Assembly (NCBI GenBank): GCA_018401885.1 | Contig: JAGYKB010000008.1 | Coordinates: forward strand, 40,519-104,518 | From: Gammaproteobacteria bacterium | GTDB lineage: Bacteria > Pseudomonadota > Gammaproteobacteria > Pseudomonadales > Pseudohongiellaceae | DNA length: 64,000 nucleotides | Direction: 5' to 3' | Shown: piece after piece, positions 2,389-26,334 of the stretch | Layout: each line of letters opens with the position of its first letter | Numbering within the stretch: the stretch's first letter is position 1 | The notes under the pieces: model-generated | What the model was told of the DNA's origin: nothing | Seen by the model: the letters and a program-made list of their open reading frames with translations, nothing else | Database searches by the model: none | Position numbers and translations under genes: made by a program

Positions 2389-5310
2389 ATGTTAATTAAG
2401 TCTTATAAGCTATTGTTATTTATTATTTTAAGCTTAATTTCGTCTGTCTCTTCTGCGCAGATTCACAGGACAGACCAGATTGAAGTGGAGCTGCTTGCGG
2501 AAACGACCAATGTTGTGCCTGGTGAGACCTTGTGGCTCGCTATCCGCCTCAAGCCCATCGAGCACTGGCATACCTATTGGAAATTTGGCGGCGACAGCGG
2601 TGAGGCAACAAGCACTAGCGAGTGGCGGCTCCCCGCAGGCGCAAGTGCCGGCGAGATTCAATGGCCGATTCCTGAGTGGACACCGTTTCCAGGCAGCGAT
2701 CTTGTCACGTTTACTTACAAGAGGGAGGTCTACCTACCTCTTCCAGTCACAGTCCCCGCCGACTATGCCGATTCTTCATTTAATCTCGCGACTCAAATTG
2801 ATTGGCAGGTCTGCGACGAGATCTGTATTCCGGGTGCAGCCGAGTTCTCACTCACACTCCCGGTTGCTTCAGAGCCCACAATTGACCCGCGCTGGGTAGA
2901 CGGCTTTGCAGAGGCGCGCGCTAGCACGCCGCTCAAGCGTGAAGAACATGAGTTGGTTGCCACATTTAACGCACACGGCGGCGAAATTAATGTCATGGTG
3001 CAGGCGCCGGATGCACGCTTCATTGACGCCGACGAAGCATGGTTCTTCCCACAGCAGCGGCGAGTCATGAAATACGCGCCCGTACGCAAGGTCATGCTTG
3101 ACGGTGATCGTGTGCAGATAAGCACGGAGCAGCATCGGCGCTTCGATCCGCAGCAAGGCGAACTCGAAGGCTTGCTCGCATTCATCGACAGCGAGGGACA
3201 GTTACATGGCTATGATGTCCTCGCGACTCGCTCTCAGGTAGCCTGGGATAACAGTATCGAGGTTGAACTGCTAAGCGAGTCAACAACACTTGTGCCCGGC
3301 CAGACACAATGGTTAGGTCTGAGACTGAAACCCGCAGCGCATTGGCACACTTATTGGAAAATGGGTGGTGACAGCGGCGAGCCAACGAGCCTCAGTGATT
3401 GGTCTGTGCCGGCAGGCACTCGCATCGGAGAACTTGAATTTCCCGCTCCGCATTGGCTGCCATTCTACGAGACTGACCTCGTTAATTTTGGCTACGAAGA
3501 CGAAGTGGTGATTCCTGTTGCAATCACGCTGCCCGCTAACTTTAGCGATGACAGCGCAACAATAGCCACGACTGCTTTTTGGAATGTATGCGAGCAGATT
3601 TGTATTCCAGGTGAGCAGCGTCTCGAGCTCACTTTGCCTGTTGCGCAGAGCCTCCAGCTTGACGCCGTCGCTGAGGGGTATTTTGCGAAAGCGCGTGAGC
3701 AGCTTCCGATCCAAGACCATGACATTGAGCAGAGCGTGGTCGCTGCGGGCGAGCGTGTAAGTCTTGGGTTTAGCTCGGAGCAGGGGATTTTTGACGGCTT
3801 TACCGATGCCTATTTTTTCCCCGAGAAGCGCCGCGTAATAAAACCCGGCCCTCTGCGCGATGTCACCCTTAGCGCTAATTTACTACAGATCACCCATTCG
3901 CAGCCGCGGCGTATGCTCGAAGATCTAAGCGAGGTTTATGGCGTGTTGGTGCTCGAAGACGCGGACGGTGAGCGCGTAGCCTATGATTTCTCAAGTCCCG
4001 CGGTTGAATTGAGTGAGTTTTCGTTGCTGCCCATGGCTGCGGTAAATCAGCAAGATCAGAATGGCGGCGGTTTGCTTCTCTACGTTGCTTTCGCTTTCCT
4101 CGGTGGACTCATCCTTAACCTGATGCCCTGCGTGTTCCCAGTATTGTCGATGAAGGCGTTAAGTCTCGCCAAAAATTCCGGCGCCACTGCGCAGAAGCAG
4201 CGCAGGGATGGCTTGGCTTACACGGCGGGGGTTCTCGTGGCATTTATGGCGCTCGCGACGGTGTTAATCGTGCTGCGCGCCGGCGGCGAGCGAATAGGCT
4301 GGGCGTTCCAATTCCAGCAGCCTTGGTTTCTGGCACTCATTGTTTATGTGTTCTTCATGCTCGCCCTGAGCCTGTCTGGCGTGTTCGAAATTGGCACGAG
4401 CCTCATGGGTATGGGCGGCAATCTTGCGCAGAAAGAGGGTTATAAGGGATCTTTCTTTACAGGGGTGCTCGCGACCACGGTTGCGACTCCCTGCACGGCG
4501 CCCTTTATGGGGCCCGCGCTAGGCTTTGCTTTGACCCAGCCCTGGGCGCTGGCGATGATCGTGTTTATTTCTCTGGGGCTTGGTATGGCTGCTCCTATTT
4601 TGATTCTGTCCTATGTGCCCGTGCTGACTCGGTTCCTGCCCAAGCCTGGGCAGTGGATGGAAACCTTTAAGCAATTTATGGCATTTCCGCTCTACGCCTC
4701 TGCGCTGTTCTTCCTCTGGGTTCTGGGCAATCAGGTCGGAATCATGGGGATGACTCTCGTGCTCGGCGCCTGCGTCGTGCTCGCCTTTGCAGCTTGGTTA
4801 TACCAGAAGCGATATACGATGGGGCCGATCGCCTTGAGCTTAAATTATGCTACCGCCGCCGTTGCGGTCGGCTTTGCTCTTTATCTGATGCAGACGCCAT
4901 TTCTGCAGACTCAGGCGCGTGAGGCGAGTGTCGCCGAATACGACGAAGAGGGTAAGCTCCTCGCGAGCAGTGATAATTTCGAACCTTTTTCGGCGGCGAG
5001 ACTTGCCGAATTGCGCGCGGAAGGCAAGCCAGTCTTTATCAATATGACGGCAGACTGGTGTATCACCTGTCTCGCAAACGAGCAGACATCACTCAGCAGC
5101 GACGCGGTTAAGAAAGCGTTGGTCGATAATGACATCACGTATTTGAAAGGGGACTGGACGAACGAGGACCCCGAGATTACCGAAGTCCTCGAACAGTTTA
5201 ATCGGCCTTCGGTTCCACTCTACCTTTTGTATCCTCGCGAGGGAGAGCCTGAAATCCTGCCACAAATACTCACGCAGTCGACGTTACTTAATGCCTTCGG
5301 CGGTGTGTAA
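2389..5310 (+). CDS. DsbD/ScsB-like protein-disulfide reductase with duplicated N-terminal domain
   Basis: Signal peptide, two homologous N-terminal domains, membrane segments with NLMPCVFPVLSMK and TPCTAPFMGPALGFAL, C-terminal thioredoxin-like ADWCITC. Confidence 0.9.
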   Translation: MLIKSYKLLLFIILSLISSVSSAQIHRTDQIEVELLAETTNVVPGETLWLAIRLKPIEHWHTYWKFGGDSGEATSTSEWRLPAGASAGEIQWPIPEWTPFPGSDLVTFTYKREVYLPLPVTVPADYADSSFNLATQIDWQVCDEICIPGAAEFSLTLPVASEPTIDPRWVDGFAEARASTPLKREEHELVATFNAHGGEINVMVQAPDARFIDADEAWFFPQQRRVMKYAPVRKVMLDGDRVQISTEQHRRFDPQQGELEGLLAFIDSEGQLHGYDVLATRSQVAWDNSIEVELLSESTTLVPGQTQWLGLRLKPAAHWHTYWKMGGDSGEPTSLSDWSVPAGTRIGELEFPAPHWLPFYETDLVNFGYEDEVVIPVAITLPANFSDDSATIATTAFWNVCEQICIPGEQRLELTLPVAQSLQLDAVAEGYFAKAREQLPIQDHDIEQSVVAAGERVSLGFSSEQGIFDGFTDAYFFPEKRRVIKPGPLRDVTLSANLLQITHSQPRRMLEDLSEVYGVLVLEDADGERVAYDFSSPAVELSEFSLLPMAAVNQQDQNGGGLLLYVAFAFLGGLILNLMPCVFPVLSMKALSLAKNSGATAQKQRRDGLAYTAGVLVAFMALATVLIVLRAGGERIGWAFQFQQPWFLALIVYVFFMLALSLSGVFEIGTSLMGMGGNLAQKEGYKGSFFTGVLATTVATPCTAPFMGPALGFALTQPWALAMIVFISLGLGMAAPILILSYVPVLTRFLPKPGQWMETFKQFMAFPLYASALFFLWVLGNQVGIMGMTLVLGACVVLAFAAWLYQKRYTMGPIALSLNYATAAVAVGFALYLMQTPFLQTQAREASVAEYDEEGKLLASSDNFEPFSAARLAELRAEGKPVFINMTADWCITCLANEQTSLSSDAVKKALVDNDITYLKGDWTNEDPEITEVLEQFNRPSVPLYLLYPREGEPEILPQILTQSTLLNAFGGV

Positions 5311-5332
5311 TGAGCGCGCAATGGGGCGGGAA

Positions 5333-6247
5333 TTAATTCTTCCCCTCCGCGCTGTAACTCGCTAAAACGACGCTGACATTGTCTCTGCCACCGTTGCGAT
5401 TAGCATGATTGATCAGCGCGCGGCAGGTATCTGCAAGATCTCCATCAAACTCTCTGAGCGTGTCGCTAATCTGCCAGTCGGCGACCAGATCACTTAATCC
5501 ATCAGTGCAGAATAATAGAAGATCGCCTTCCTGCAATGTGCAGTGAAGAGTGTCGACTTGGATGGTCGCTTTGATTCCCAGTGCGCGGGTAACCACGTGG
5601 CCCATCCCTGTCGATCTGGAGTTGCGCTCCGTATAAAAGCCGTCGTCGATTAGCTCTTGGAGAAGGCTGTGATCATTCGTCAATTGCTCAAGGCTGCCTT
5701 GTCGAAAAAGATAAAGCCTCGAGTCGCCGATATGGGCAATAGTGAGCTGATTATCTGAGAGATGTGCCGCGATGGCAGTCGTCCCCATGCCCTTGTTTTC
5801 GGGCTCTAACGCCTGTGCGAAAATCGCGGCGTTAGCCTGTTCAAACGCTAATTTAAGGCTCTCTGCAGCCGAGTTTGCTGAGTCGTTATAGGATTTTGCG
5901 AAGTGCGCAGGTATGCACTCAACGGCAATCTGAGCGGCGACTTCGCCAGCGCGATGACCGCCCATCCCGTCGGCGATCACGATCAGTGTGGTTTCGACAT
6001 CGATGTGGAACCGATCCTGATTGACTTTACGCCTTCGCCCGCAGTCGCTCTGCGCTGCGAGAGAGAGATGGCTGCGCGACCCTGCCACGAGTGAGTGAAT
6101 CTCTGAAATGGCAGCGTAATTCTTGTACACGCTGTTGTTATTCTTGCTGCGCAAAAACCGTTTATCCTTTTGCTTCGGATCGGATTTGCATTCTAAGGCG
6201 CAGAGACTAGTCAGTAAACGATTGATTGCGAAGTGTTTGGCGCTCAT
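5333..6247 (-). CDS. PP2C-family serine/threonine protein phosphatase
   Basis: RRKVNQDRF, IADGMGGHRAGEVAA, AHIGDSRLYLFR, FCTDGLSDLV, GGRDNVSVVL motifs. Confidence 0.9.
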   Translation of the reverse strand: MSAKHFAINRLLTSLCALECKSDPKQKDKRFLRSKNNNSVYKNYAAISEIHSLVAGSRSHLSLAAQSDCGRRRKVNQDRFHIDVETTLIVIADGMGGHRAGEVAAQIAVECIPAHFAKSYNDSANSAAESLKLAFEQANAAIFAQALEPENKGMGTTAIAAHLSDNQLTIAHIGDSRLYLFRQGSLEQLTNDHSLLQELIDDGFYTERNSRSTGMGHVVTRALGIKATIQVDTLHCTLQEGDLLLFCTDGLSDLVADWQISDTLREFDGDLADTCRALINHANRNGGRDNVSVVLASYSAEGKN

Positions 6248-23119: not shown

Positions 23120-23196
23120 TGGCGCACCCGGCACGATTCGAACGTGCGACCCCCTAGTTCGTAGCCAGGTACTCTATCCAGCTGAGCTACGGGTGC
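23120..23196 (-). tRNA. tRNA-Arg(ACG), with encoded CCA
   Basis: Reverse complement gcacccgtagctcagctggatagagtacctggctACGaactagg...gttcgaatc...cgggtgcgCCA folds as cloverleaf. Confidence 0.95.
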
Positions 23197-23365: not shown

Positions 23366-24010
23366 ATGAGTCTTAATCTAGTCAGTAATCTGGCGTGCTT
23401 TCGCACAAGAGTATCGTTTGCACGATTCCCGCGCACAAGGTTAGTTGCGAGCATGACTTTGATTGCTGCCTTTCTGGGTAATGTAGCCAGCTACGCTGAT
23501 TATGAGCAGGGCGTGAATGCCGCGTTCGACGGCGATTATGCTACCGCTTACCGTGAGTTTTCGATCGCCGCGAAAGAAGGCCTGGCACTCGCTCAATATA
23601 ATCTGGGCATCCTCTACTTTACAGGACGTGGGGTCGAGCGCGACGCAGAAGAGGCCTACCGCTGGACGAGTGCTGCGGCAGAGCAGGGTCACGTGGCAGC
23701 GCAGTTTAATCTCGCTACTCTGTTAATGACCGGTGAGGGAGTGGCGAAAGATGCTTCGATGGCAGTAAACTGGTATTCCCGAGCCGCGAAGGCAGGCCAT
23801 CCCGAAGCAGCAAGCGAACTAGCAACTCTTTTTTTCGACGGTAGGGAGGTCGAAAGGGACAGGGTGGTGGCACATGCTTGGGCTAGTTATGCAGTGGCGA
23901 ATAAGGCAGAGGGCGCCGATGCGCTGTTAACGCGAATAGAACGCAAACTCGATACCGCAGAGCTATCCGCAGCGCGACGGCTCTTCGCGCAATGGAAAAT
24001 CGCGCCTTAG
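23366..24010 (+). CDS. Sel1-repeat (TPR-like) exported protein
   Basis: AQYNLGILYFTGRGVERDAEEAYRWTSAAAEQGHVAAQFNLATLLMTGEGVAKDASMAVNWYSRAA. Confidence 0.9.
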   Translation: MSLNLVSNLACFRTRVSFARFPRTRLVASMTLIAAFLGNVASYADYEQGVNAAFDGDYATAYREFSIAAKEGLALAQYNLGILYFTGRGVERDAEEAYRWTSAAAEQGHVAAQFNLATLLMTGEGVAKDASMAVNWYSRAAKAGHPEAASELATLFFDGREVERDRVVAHAWASYAVANKAEGADALLTRIERKLDTAELSAARRLFAQWKIAP

Positions 24011-24942
24011 GTCTCTGAAATCATCCCGCTGCGCTCAGTGCCGGAGCGTTTAGCTTCCTCCTGTTGCCGGCGCCTGGCCTCGCCTCGCTGCCGTAATTCC
24101 TCTCTATTGGAGTCATCTACGCGCGAATAGTCATCACGCCACGACTGATCATGGCTCCATTCGACAGGGCTGCGGGCAAGCCATTGCTTCTCGCTTGCAG
24201 TGACTAACCAGTCAAGCGCTTGGCTAAGAATTTCTTTCTGCATCGCTCGATCGTAGGGACGACCGCAGGGATTGCCGAGGGGAAAATCCACATGAAGATA
24301 GCGCGGCACTCGCGCGTGCTCGACAATGTCGAGAGCCGAGCCAATTATGAGTGTTGGGATACCGTTCGCTTCAAGGTGTCTCGCGACCAGACTCACGGTC
24401 TGGTGACATACGGGTCACAACGGAACGAGGAGAACTATGTCGACTTCATCCTCTCTGCACAGGTTAAGCAGATGAGGCGCCTCGACCTCTGACGTATTGC
24501 GTTTCGAATAATCCGTGGGCACCGTATAGAAGCGCTCACAAAGCTCGCCGATAATTCCTTCGCCGGCAGCCTCATCGAGGGCGCGTAGCGGGAGAAAAGA
24601 GCCTGTATCGTCGGTGTGCGTTGCGCTTTTGTGCCATGACAGCTCGGAGGTAAACATCGAATCAGGGTAGGGCCTACTTGGCCGCGGATAGATGCCCCGC
24701 CGAGTTCTACCCTGTTCGGTATCTGGCATCGCCGTGGTAATAACCGCGACTCTGCAATCTTCGAGTGGTTTTTGCAATTTTGTGAAGGGCGTATTTGAGT
24801 TTTTCGCCCATTGGTAGTGGTTGCTGTAGCCTTGTGCGCTGTAAAAGTCGCGGGTACGCTGCATGTAATCGACATCGTATTTTCGCAGGGTTACGTCACT
24901 CGCATTTCCATCTGTTTTATCGTCGTCTTTTTTCGGTGTCAT
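24007..24942 (-). CDS. Predicted selenoprotein of the GrdB/PrdB-like (glycine/sarcosine/betaine/proline reductase B) family; in-frame UGA at 24415-24417 read as Sec
   Basis: ORF 24415-24942 and ORF 24007-24396 are in the same frame: ...EDEVDIVLLVPL-U-PVCHQTVSLVARHLEANGIPTLIIGSALDIVEHARVPRYLHVDFPLGNPCGRPYD... (about 311 aa). Coding resemblance continues directly through the UGA. Confidence 0.75.
24386..24417 (-). promoter_or_regulatory. Putative bacterial SECIS element downstream of in-frame UGA
   Basis: mRNA sense: UGA CCCGUAUGUC ACCAGAC-CGUGA-GUCUGGU; perfect 7-bp stem, 5-nt loop with GU, 17 nt between UGA and loop. Confidence 0.7.
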
Positions 24943-25215
24943 GCGCGTCTCCTTAAATAGCTAGCCTGTCTCGCTGACTATCTCCTAGTTCCACCTGAAA
25001 AGAGGCGTTTGATAAGTACACCAGCGCTCCCTCGATTTAGTACACTGTGAGCCGAAGTGTTTGCCTAAATGGTTTCTTGGCGAGTTTAGCTGAACGATGA
25101 GGCGAGGACTAGATACTGTGTACTACGTCATAGCGGGTGAAGTATAAGTAGCATACGCGCACCGCTAGCTTATTTTAGTTGTTTCACAAAACGAATTTTC
25201 GGGATGCATTGAACT

Positions 25216-26334
25216 ATGAGAACAAAACCAATTGTCGGAAAAGTAGCGATGACGCGATTCGCGTTTGCGATGTTATTCCTTCTAATGGGTGTGCAAGGTC
25301 AGGCAGCGATGCCTGCGAATGAGCAAAAAGTTGAGGAGGAAATCGACATGCGCATGACTTCACCAATCGCAGGCGTTAATTTTAGGATGATCGAAACCAA
25401 TGGCATTTCAATGCGAATCGCCGAGGCTGGAAGCGATGGCCCTCTCGTGTTGCTAGTACATGGCTGGCCGGAATCGTGGTACAGCTGGCGGCATCAGATT
25501 GTCGCGCTTGCCACTGCAGGTTACCGAGTTGTTGCTCCAGATATGCGTGGCTATGGGAGCACCACGGCCCCCGCTTCGGTAGAGGACTATGACATCGTGA
25601 CTATTGCTGCAGACCTCATTGGCTTGCTTGATGCCCTTGGCGAGGAAAAGGCGGTCATGGTGGGGCACGACTGGGGGGCGATAGTTGCGTGGCAAACTGT
25701 CTTGTTTCACCCAAATCGCTTCTCTGCACTCGTTGCAATGAGTGTGCCCTACGGGGGAAGACCTGAACGTTCGCCGATGTTCGAATGGCGCGAGGCGTAT
25801 GGCGACAACTTCTACTACATTCTCTACCACAATGAACCGGGAGGTGTCGCAGAGGCCGAATACGATGCTGATCCTCGGGGCTTATTGAGTCGCCTTTATC
25901 TATCGCCCGATAGTGAGCGCGAGCCGCGGGAAATTAACGATCCTAAGGCTGCAGCGGGTGGCTGGATAGGGCGTCTCGGTGCCGCGAAAGGCCTGCCCGA
26001 TTGGTTAAAAGAAGAGGATCTCGATTACGTAGTCGATGAATTTAAACATGCTGGGTTTCGAGGCGGGATTAACTATTACCGAAACTTTCAGCGCAACTGG
26101 GAGCTCACCGAAAGCATTGGGCGCGATACAATTAAAATTCCGACACTATTTCTCGCAGGGAGTGAGGACATGGTTATCGGTCATGCATCACAGGAGCGCC
26201 TGGAAGGTGCTATGTCGCGAATTGCCAAAGACTTACGCGGCGTGATTCTGCTGCCTGGCATAGGTCATTGGGTGCAGCAAGAGGCACCAGGGGCCACTAA
26301 TGAGGCATTGTTGGAATTTTTGAAGGGGCTTTAA
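25216..26334 (+). CDS. Alpha/beta hydrolase, epoxide hydrolase-like, exported
   Basis: LLVHGWPESWYSWRHQI, VGHDWGAIVAW, PGIGHWVQQEAPGATNEALLEFL. Confidence 0.88.
   Translation: MRTKPIVGKVAMTRFAFAMLFLLMGVQGQAAMPANEQKVEEEIDMRMTSPIAGVNFRMIETNGISMRIAEAGSDGPLVLLVHGWPESWYSWRHQIVALATAGYRVVAPDMRGYGSTTAPASVEDYDIVTIAADLIGLLDALGEEKAVMVGHDWGAIVAWQTVLFHPNRFSALVAMSVPYGGRPERSPMFEWREAYGDNFYYILYHNEPGGVAEAEYDADPRGLLSRLYLSPDSEREPREINDPKAAAGGWIGRLGAAKGLPDWLKEEDLDYVVDEFKHAGFRGGINYYRNFQRNWELTESIGRDTIKIPTLFLAGSEDMVIGHASQERLEGAMSRIAKDLRGVILLPGIGHWVQQEAPGATNEALLEFLKGL

Follow-up and report, generated by a model that had tools for sequence, protein, structure and literature searches.

The closest described systems include two kinds of reductase subunit. 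PrdB is the 26-kDa subunit of clostridial D-proline reductase, and its selenocysteine (Sec) is residue 152 of 242; GrdB, GrdF and GrdH are the selenoproteins B of glycine, sarcosine and betaine reductase, and Sec in GrdB is residue 350 of 436 (PMC3091704). The mechanism proposed for PrdB begins with an attack by Sec on the alpha carbon of proline bound to the pyruvoyl group; the selenoether so formed is then resolved by a PrdB cysteine to a selenide-sulfide (PMC3091704). UxxC selenoproteins named PrdB have also been reported from marine metagenomes since 2005, with 42 from the Sargasso Sea (PMC1088965) and 235 from the GOS data (PMC2398784), their functions being assigned by homology alone. 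In recent reviews, too, D-proline reductase (TIGR04483) is listed among the UxxC families (PMC13188914, PMC9312934).

One reading frame across an in-frame UGA

A distant relative of these proteins lies on the minus strand of the window, by which we mean the whole 64,000-nucleotide stretch of DNA that was analyzed. The sequence-only reading had joined two ORFs, 24415-24942 and 24007-24396, into a single selenoprotein gene. On rechecking, both ORFs indeed occupy one minus-strand frame, with one TGA (24417-24415) and six sense codons between them. Translation with the TGA as Sec yields, as had been claimed, 311 residues with U176 in a U-P-V-C (UxxC) motif and no further stop until the terminal TAA. 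The features of the locus are as follows:

24007-24942, minus strand: predicted PrdB/GrdB-like selenoprotein gene, 311 codons including one UGA (Sec), with ATG at 24942-24940 and TAA at 24009-24007
24415-24417, minus strand: in-frame UGA, predicted selenocysteine codon for residue 176 (TGA in close relatives, a Cys codon in more distant ones)
24406-24408, minus strand: codon for Cys179, the putative resolving cysteine of U-P-V-C, invariant in alignments A1 and A3
24386-24404, minus strand: bacterial SECIS-like hairpin ACCAGAC-CGUGA-GUCUGGU, 7 bp, predicted from covariation, synonymous conservation and fold
24949-24954, minus strand: Shine-Dalgarno sequence AAGGAG, 6 nt 5' of the ATG, read in the sequence and rated good
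25216-26334, plus strand: divergent alpha/beta hydrolase gene, the most conserved neighbor in the genus (47 loci), an association rather than a proven partner

A nonsense mutation, a sequencing error or a pseudogene would also leave two truncated proteins here, and two ORFs are what a standard gene caller would be expected to report. Close relatives, however, carry the same TGA throughout, a pattern that chance comes nowhere near explaining. Homologs in 43 of 60 genus-mates (54-95% identity) have the identical TGA and none has a sense codon in its place; the G005 homolog is truncated before the UGA site and is for that reason not among the 43. A scan of species genomes returned 475 relatives, and all of the best 80, which share some genomes with the 43 genus-mates, have TGA at the aligned column, set within PL-U-PVCHQT or a near variant. 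These best 80 come from Gammaproteobacteria, deltaproteobacterial and myxococcal bins, Binatota, Acidobacteriota, Chloroflexota and the cultured Vineibacter terrae, and records under the names Pseudohongiella sp. and OM182 are among the nearest relatives. We found no literature on Sec in Pseudohongiella or OM182, and a search of viral contigs returned no relatives of the protein.

Homologs lacking the stop carry Cys at the UGA column, as judged from 398 sampled genomes of the phylum. A sister clade has the Cys form NCPVCHQT, and one locus, L185, has PLCPVCHQT and nests in the tree with the UGA-bearing L162 (Vineibacter terrae) and L189; in all, well-supported branches require three changes between Sec and Cys. 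The inspection of this column that the sequence-only reading had called for turned up only Sec (TGA) or Cys and no other residue. These Cys homologs (CPVCHQT; e.g., L185 and L175-L188; other Pseudomonadota) resemble the window protein in being full length, at about 309-336 aa, with Cys replacing Sec. They differ in that their genomes mostly lack SelA and that several directly adjoin a CaiB/BaiF CoA-transferase gene. Within the phylum sample, SelA occurs in both of the two UGA-bearing genomes versus 1 of 16 Cys-only genomes (Fisher p ~0.02, calculated by hand). Finally, comparison with a 95%-identical sister gene gave pN/pS values of 0.006/0.108 after the TGA and 0.032/0.083 before it, and purifying selection persists downstream of the TGA.

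Recoding hairpin and selenocysteine machinery

The SECIS-like hairpin starts 13 nt past the U of the UGA. Across 23 diverse sequences, 88% of the hairpin cells are paired and both sides vary in four of the seven pairs, whereas pairing drops to 18-36% when the register is slid. The covariation score is 0.316 versus 0.108 in shuffled alignments, with none of 500 shuffles scoring as high. Synonymous codon conservation is 0.81 at codons 180-187 versus 0.37 elsewhere, and the seven-codon maximum over the whole gene falls at codons 180-186. Folded as a single sequence, the window's hairpin is not unusual in stability (z -1.04), so that the support for it is comparative. By eye, the TGC of the Cys homolog L185 and the 30 nt that follow can form a SECIS-like hairpin with one mismatch, where its Sec-bearing neighbor L189 has all seven pairs; the L185 version is a possible fossil of a change from Sec to Cys.

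The host genome bin (99.6% complete, 70 contigs) encodes a tRNA-Sec with a UCA anticodon (67.4 bits against a cutoff of 47), SelB (352 bits against 242) and SelD (272 bits against 125). The SelD match, at G000:C4:3260-4165 (L051), sits in a fusion-like open frame of 753 aa whose N-terminal part resembles a pyridine nucleotide oxidoreductase. SelA had no match in the bin. Of 61 genomes of the genus, 53 nevertheless have SelA, among them that of the sister with the 95%-identical gene. A DNA search of the host bin with a 9.5-kb stretch around selA of the sister likewise gave no match, in a run without a positive control. Since selA is missing together with its whole surrounding region, the simplest reading of its absence is a binning or assembly gap. 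The survey of selA, selB, selC and selD proposed in the sequence-only reading is therefore borne out for tRNA-Sec, SelB and SelD, but for SelA only in the sister. Elsewhere, the UGA gene lies near such machinery: it is divergent to selA-selB in G081 (L055), and in G488 (L195) it adjoins a SelD fusion (3802-6018), with selA on the same contig.

The absence of SelA from the bin also counts in favor of two truncated proteins. The conserved TGA, the selection downstream of it and the covarying hairpin lead us to reject a pseudogene, a frameshift or a sequencing error, and with tRNA-Sec, SelB and SelD also encoded in the genome, we give that explanation next to no probability. General reassignment of UGA is disfavored by the presence of a real tRNA-Sec and SelB and by Cys, not Trp, at the homologous column. 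That the locus encodes one selenoprotein, with Sec at UGA 24417-24415, is strongly supported by the comparative evidence.

Relationship to PrdB and GrdB, and genomic neighborhood

Among NCBIfam models, the best match of the protein is PrdB TIGR04483 (1e-22, covering model positions 19-237 of 238), at 80.8 bits against an equivalog cutoff of 300. Other models also fell below their cutoffs, namely PF07355 (12.6 versus 22 bits) and TIGR01918 (36.1 versus 65.45 bits), and Pfam gave only subthreshold HGD-D and GRDB matches. With GrdB-type models the C-terminal third aligns, and residue 176 corresponds roughly to GrdB-family model positions 346-350; the Sec register also agrees with Sec152 of the 242-aa PrdB, an agreement that does not come from a residue-by-residue alignment. 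The resemblance to PrdB and GrdB proposed from the sequence is thus genuine, though distant.

The likeness to PrdB extends over nearly the whole model and includes the UxxC Sec motif and a Sec placed past the midpoint of the chain. The window protein is nonetheless longer, at 311 aa versus 242, has N- and C-terminal extensions and scores far below the equivalog cutoff. GrdB, GrdF and GrdH share the aligned C-terminal third with the Sec region in register, but the window protein lacks the N-terminal part of GrdB and falls below every curated cutoff. Its gene also stands alone, in a marine gammaproteobacterium: PrdA was found in none of 98 genomes, a GrdE-type protein in none of 59, and GrdA was not found in the host genome, in searches whose positive controls were all silent. 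The sequence-only reading had seen no Grd or Prd partners nearby; as far as these searches reach, with their controls silent, that statement extends genome-wide.

These comparisons bear on whether the protein could be a true B subunit of D-proline reductase (or of glycine, sarcosine or betaine reductase), with a PrdA- or GrdE-type pyruvoyl protein encoded elsewhere. PrdB is its best NCBIfam match, and marine homologs have been published under that name (PMC2398784), but the score of 80.8 bits against 300 and the failure to find PrdA, GrdE-type proteins or GrdA make a B subunit highly improbable, even allowing for the silent controls. We reject membership in D-proline or glycine reductase on the same grounds of unmet cutoffs and partners not found by searches with silent controls.

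The Sargasso Sea and GOS proteins called PrdB share with the window protein a marine origin, the family label and the UxxC motif, and they probably include this family, the likeness being one of label, origin and motif rather than of sequences compared directly. That PrdB-like selenoproteins are known from marine microbes had been stated correctly at the outset (PMC1088965, PMC2398784). The description of the protein as otherwise uncharacterized holds for its function, but not for its type, as marine UxxC "PrdB" selenoproteins have long been known (PMC1088965, PMC2398784). Because such proteins have been reported since 2005, we regard the window gene as a well-supported addition to a known type.

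Some genus-mates also encode longer PrdB-like paralogs of about 385 aa (L060 in G045, L057 in G046, and L058 7285-8427 in G051). Like the window protein, these have a UxxC Sec motif (TPV-U-PLCTRT) and a hairpin of their own, which differs in sequence (GCGTACCGTGAGTACGC). They are set apart by a C-terminal extension, by forming a separate clade and by an identity of only about 33-35% over the core. This paralog was not found in the host genome, and G047 holds a Cys version of it (L059 5937-7130).

Neighboring genes vary by lineage, and across phyla no universal partner emerged. In 30 relatives (e.g., L144, L159 and L142), the selenoprotein gene is followed, after about 75 bp and in the same orientation, by a gene for a secreted HpcH/HpaI aldolase-like protein; in the window it is not. 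Binatota loci have flavin monooxygenase-like genes as neighbors (by eye), and at L202 4222-8795 a Cys homolog is part of an operon-like run with UPF0261, PEP-hydrolase-like and AMP-binding (acyl-CoA synthetase-like) proteins. Within the window, ARAGORN called a tRNA-Arg(acg) at 23120-23196 on the minus strand, where no Rfam tRNA match reached the cutoff; the call may be degenerate or false. The neighbors are compatible with the breakdown of small acids or xenobiotics. As they are not conserved across phyla, they carry little information on the substrate.

Predicted fold and proposed reaction

AlphaFold2 predicted, with confidence, a single fold of the alpha/beta type (pLDDT 90.5, pTM 0.88). 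In the model, a strand at 169-173 is followed by U176, placed at the start of a helix spanning 177-192. A Foldseek search of the PDB with this model returned nothing at an E value of 0.001 or below, and the sole hit of a profile search against PDB sequences (E 0.29) is at chance level. With no solved relative found, there is no mechanism to copy.

In the reading that we propose, SelB and the overlapping hairpin at 24404-24386 would direct the ribosome to insert selenocysteine from tRNA-Sec at the UGA. The resulting 311-aa protein, with its U176-P-V-C179 center, would be related to PrdB and to the C-terminal part of GrdB but stand alone. By analogy with PrdB, the U176 selenolate may attack an activated small molecule as a nucleophile, forming a selenoether or selenenyl intermediate, and Cys179 could resolve this to a selenenyl sulfide that cellular thiols such as thioredoxin would presumably reduce. 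The searches found no pyruvoyl partner, which makes D-proline, glycine, sarcosine or betaine on a pyruvoyl carrier an improbable substrate, and the actual one may need no such carrier. The CoA-transferase, acyl-CoA dehydrogenase, aldolase and hydrolase neighbors hint, weakly, at a catabolic reaction in which an alpha-substituted carbonyl-type compound is cleaved reductively.

A UxxC center could instead serve a protective seleno-peroxidase or a thiol-disulfide oxidoreductase that cleaves no C-N or C-X bond of a metabolite. Among thiol-redox motifs UxxC is a common one (PMC2398784), and a paper cited in PMC3091704 reports, judging from the title, that GrdB has peroxidase activity. The window protein, however, is not thioredoxin-like in sequence, has no close PDB fold that we could find and retains many invariant residues outside the motif, which suggests a specific substrate pocket; we consider a purely protective role unlikely. 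A predicted stand-alone UxxC seleno-reductase remains the most likely identity of the protein. Taken jointly, decoding of the UGA as Sec through the hairpin and SelB, and a stand-alone PrdB/GrdB relative with U176 as nucleophile and Cys179 as resolver, make up an account that we hold to be likely.

Relatives of the gene form a clade of hundreds of members in Gammaproteobacteria, Myxococcota, Binatota, Acidobacteriota, Chloroflexota and other groups. On balance, we lean towards viewing it as a distinct clade of Sec-dependent enzymes that perform a reductive reaction without a pyruvoyl partner, and whose genes now appear as split hypothetical ORFs or under the label of proline reductase, a label for the PrdB-like clade that our tests do not support. 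Selenium use is common among marine bacteria and its functions are poorly known. Against this background, the analysis adds a securely placed marine selenoprotein, together with its Cys counterparts and its recoding signal, and marks the PrdB-like clade as a tractable family in which to find a new Sec-dependent reaction.
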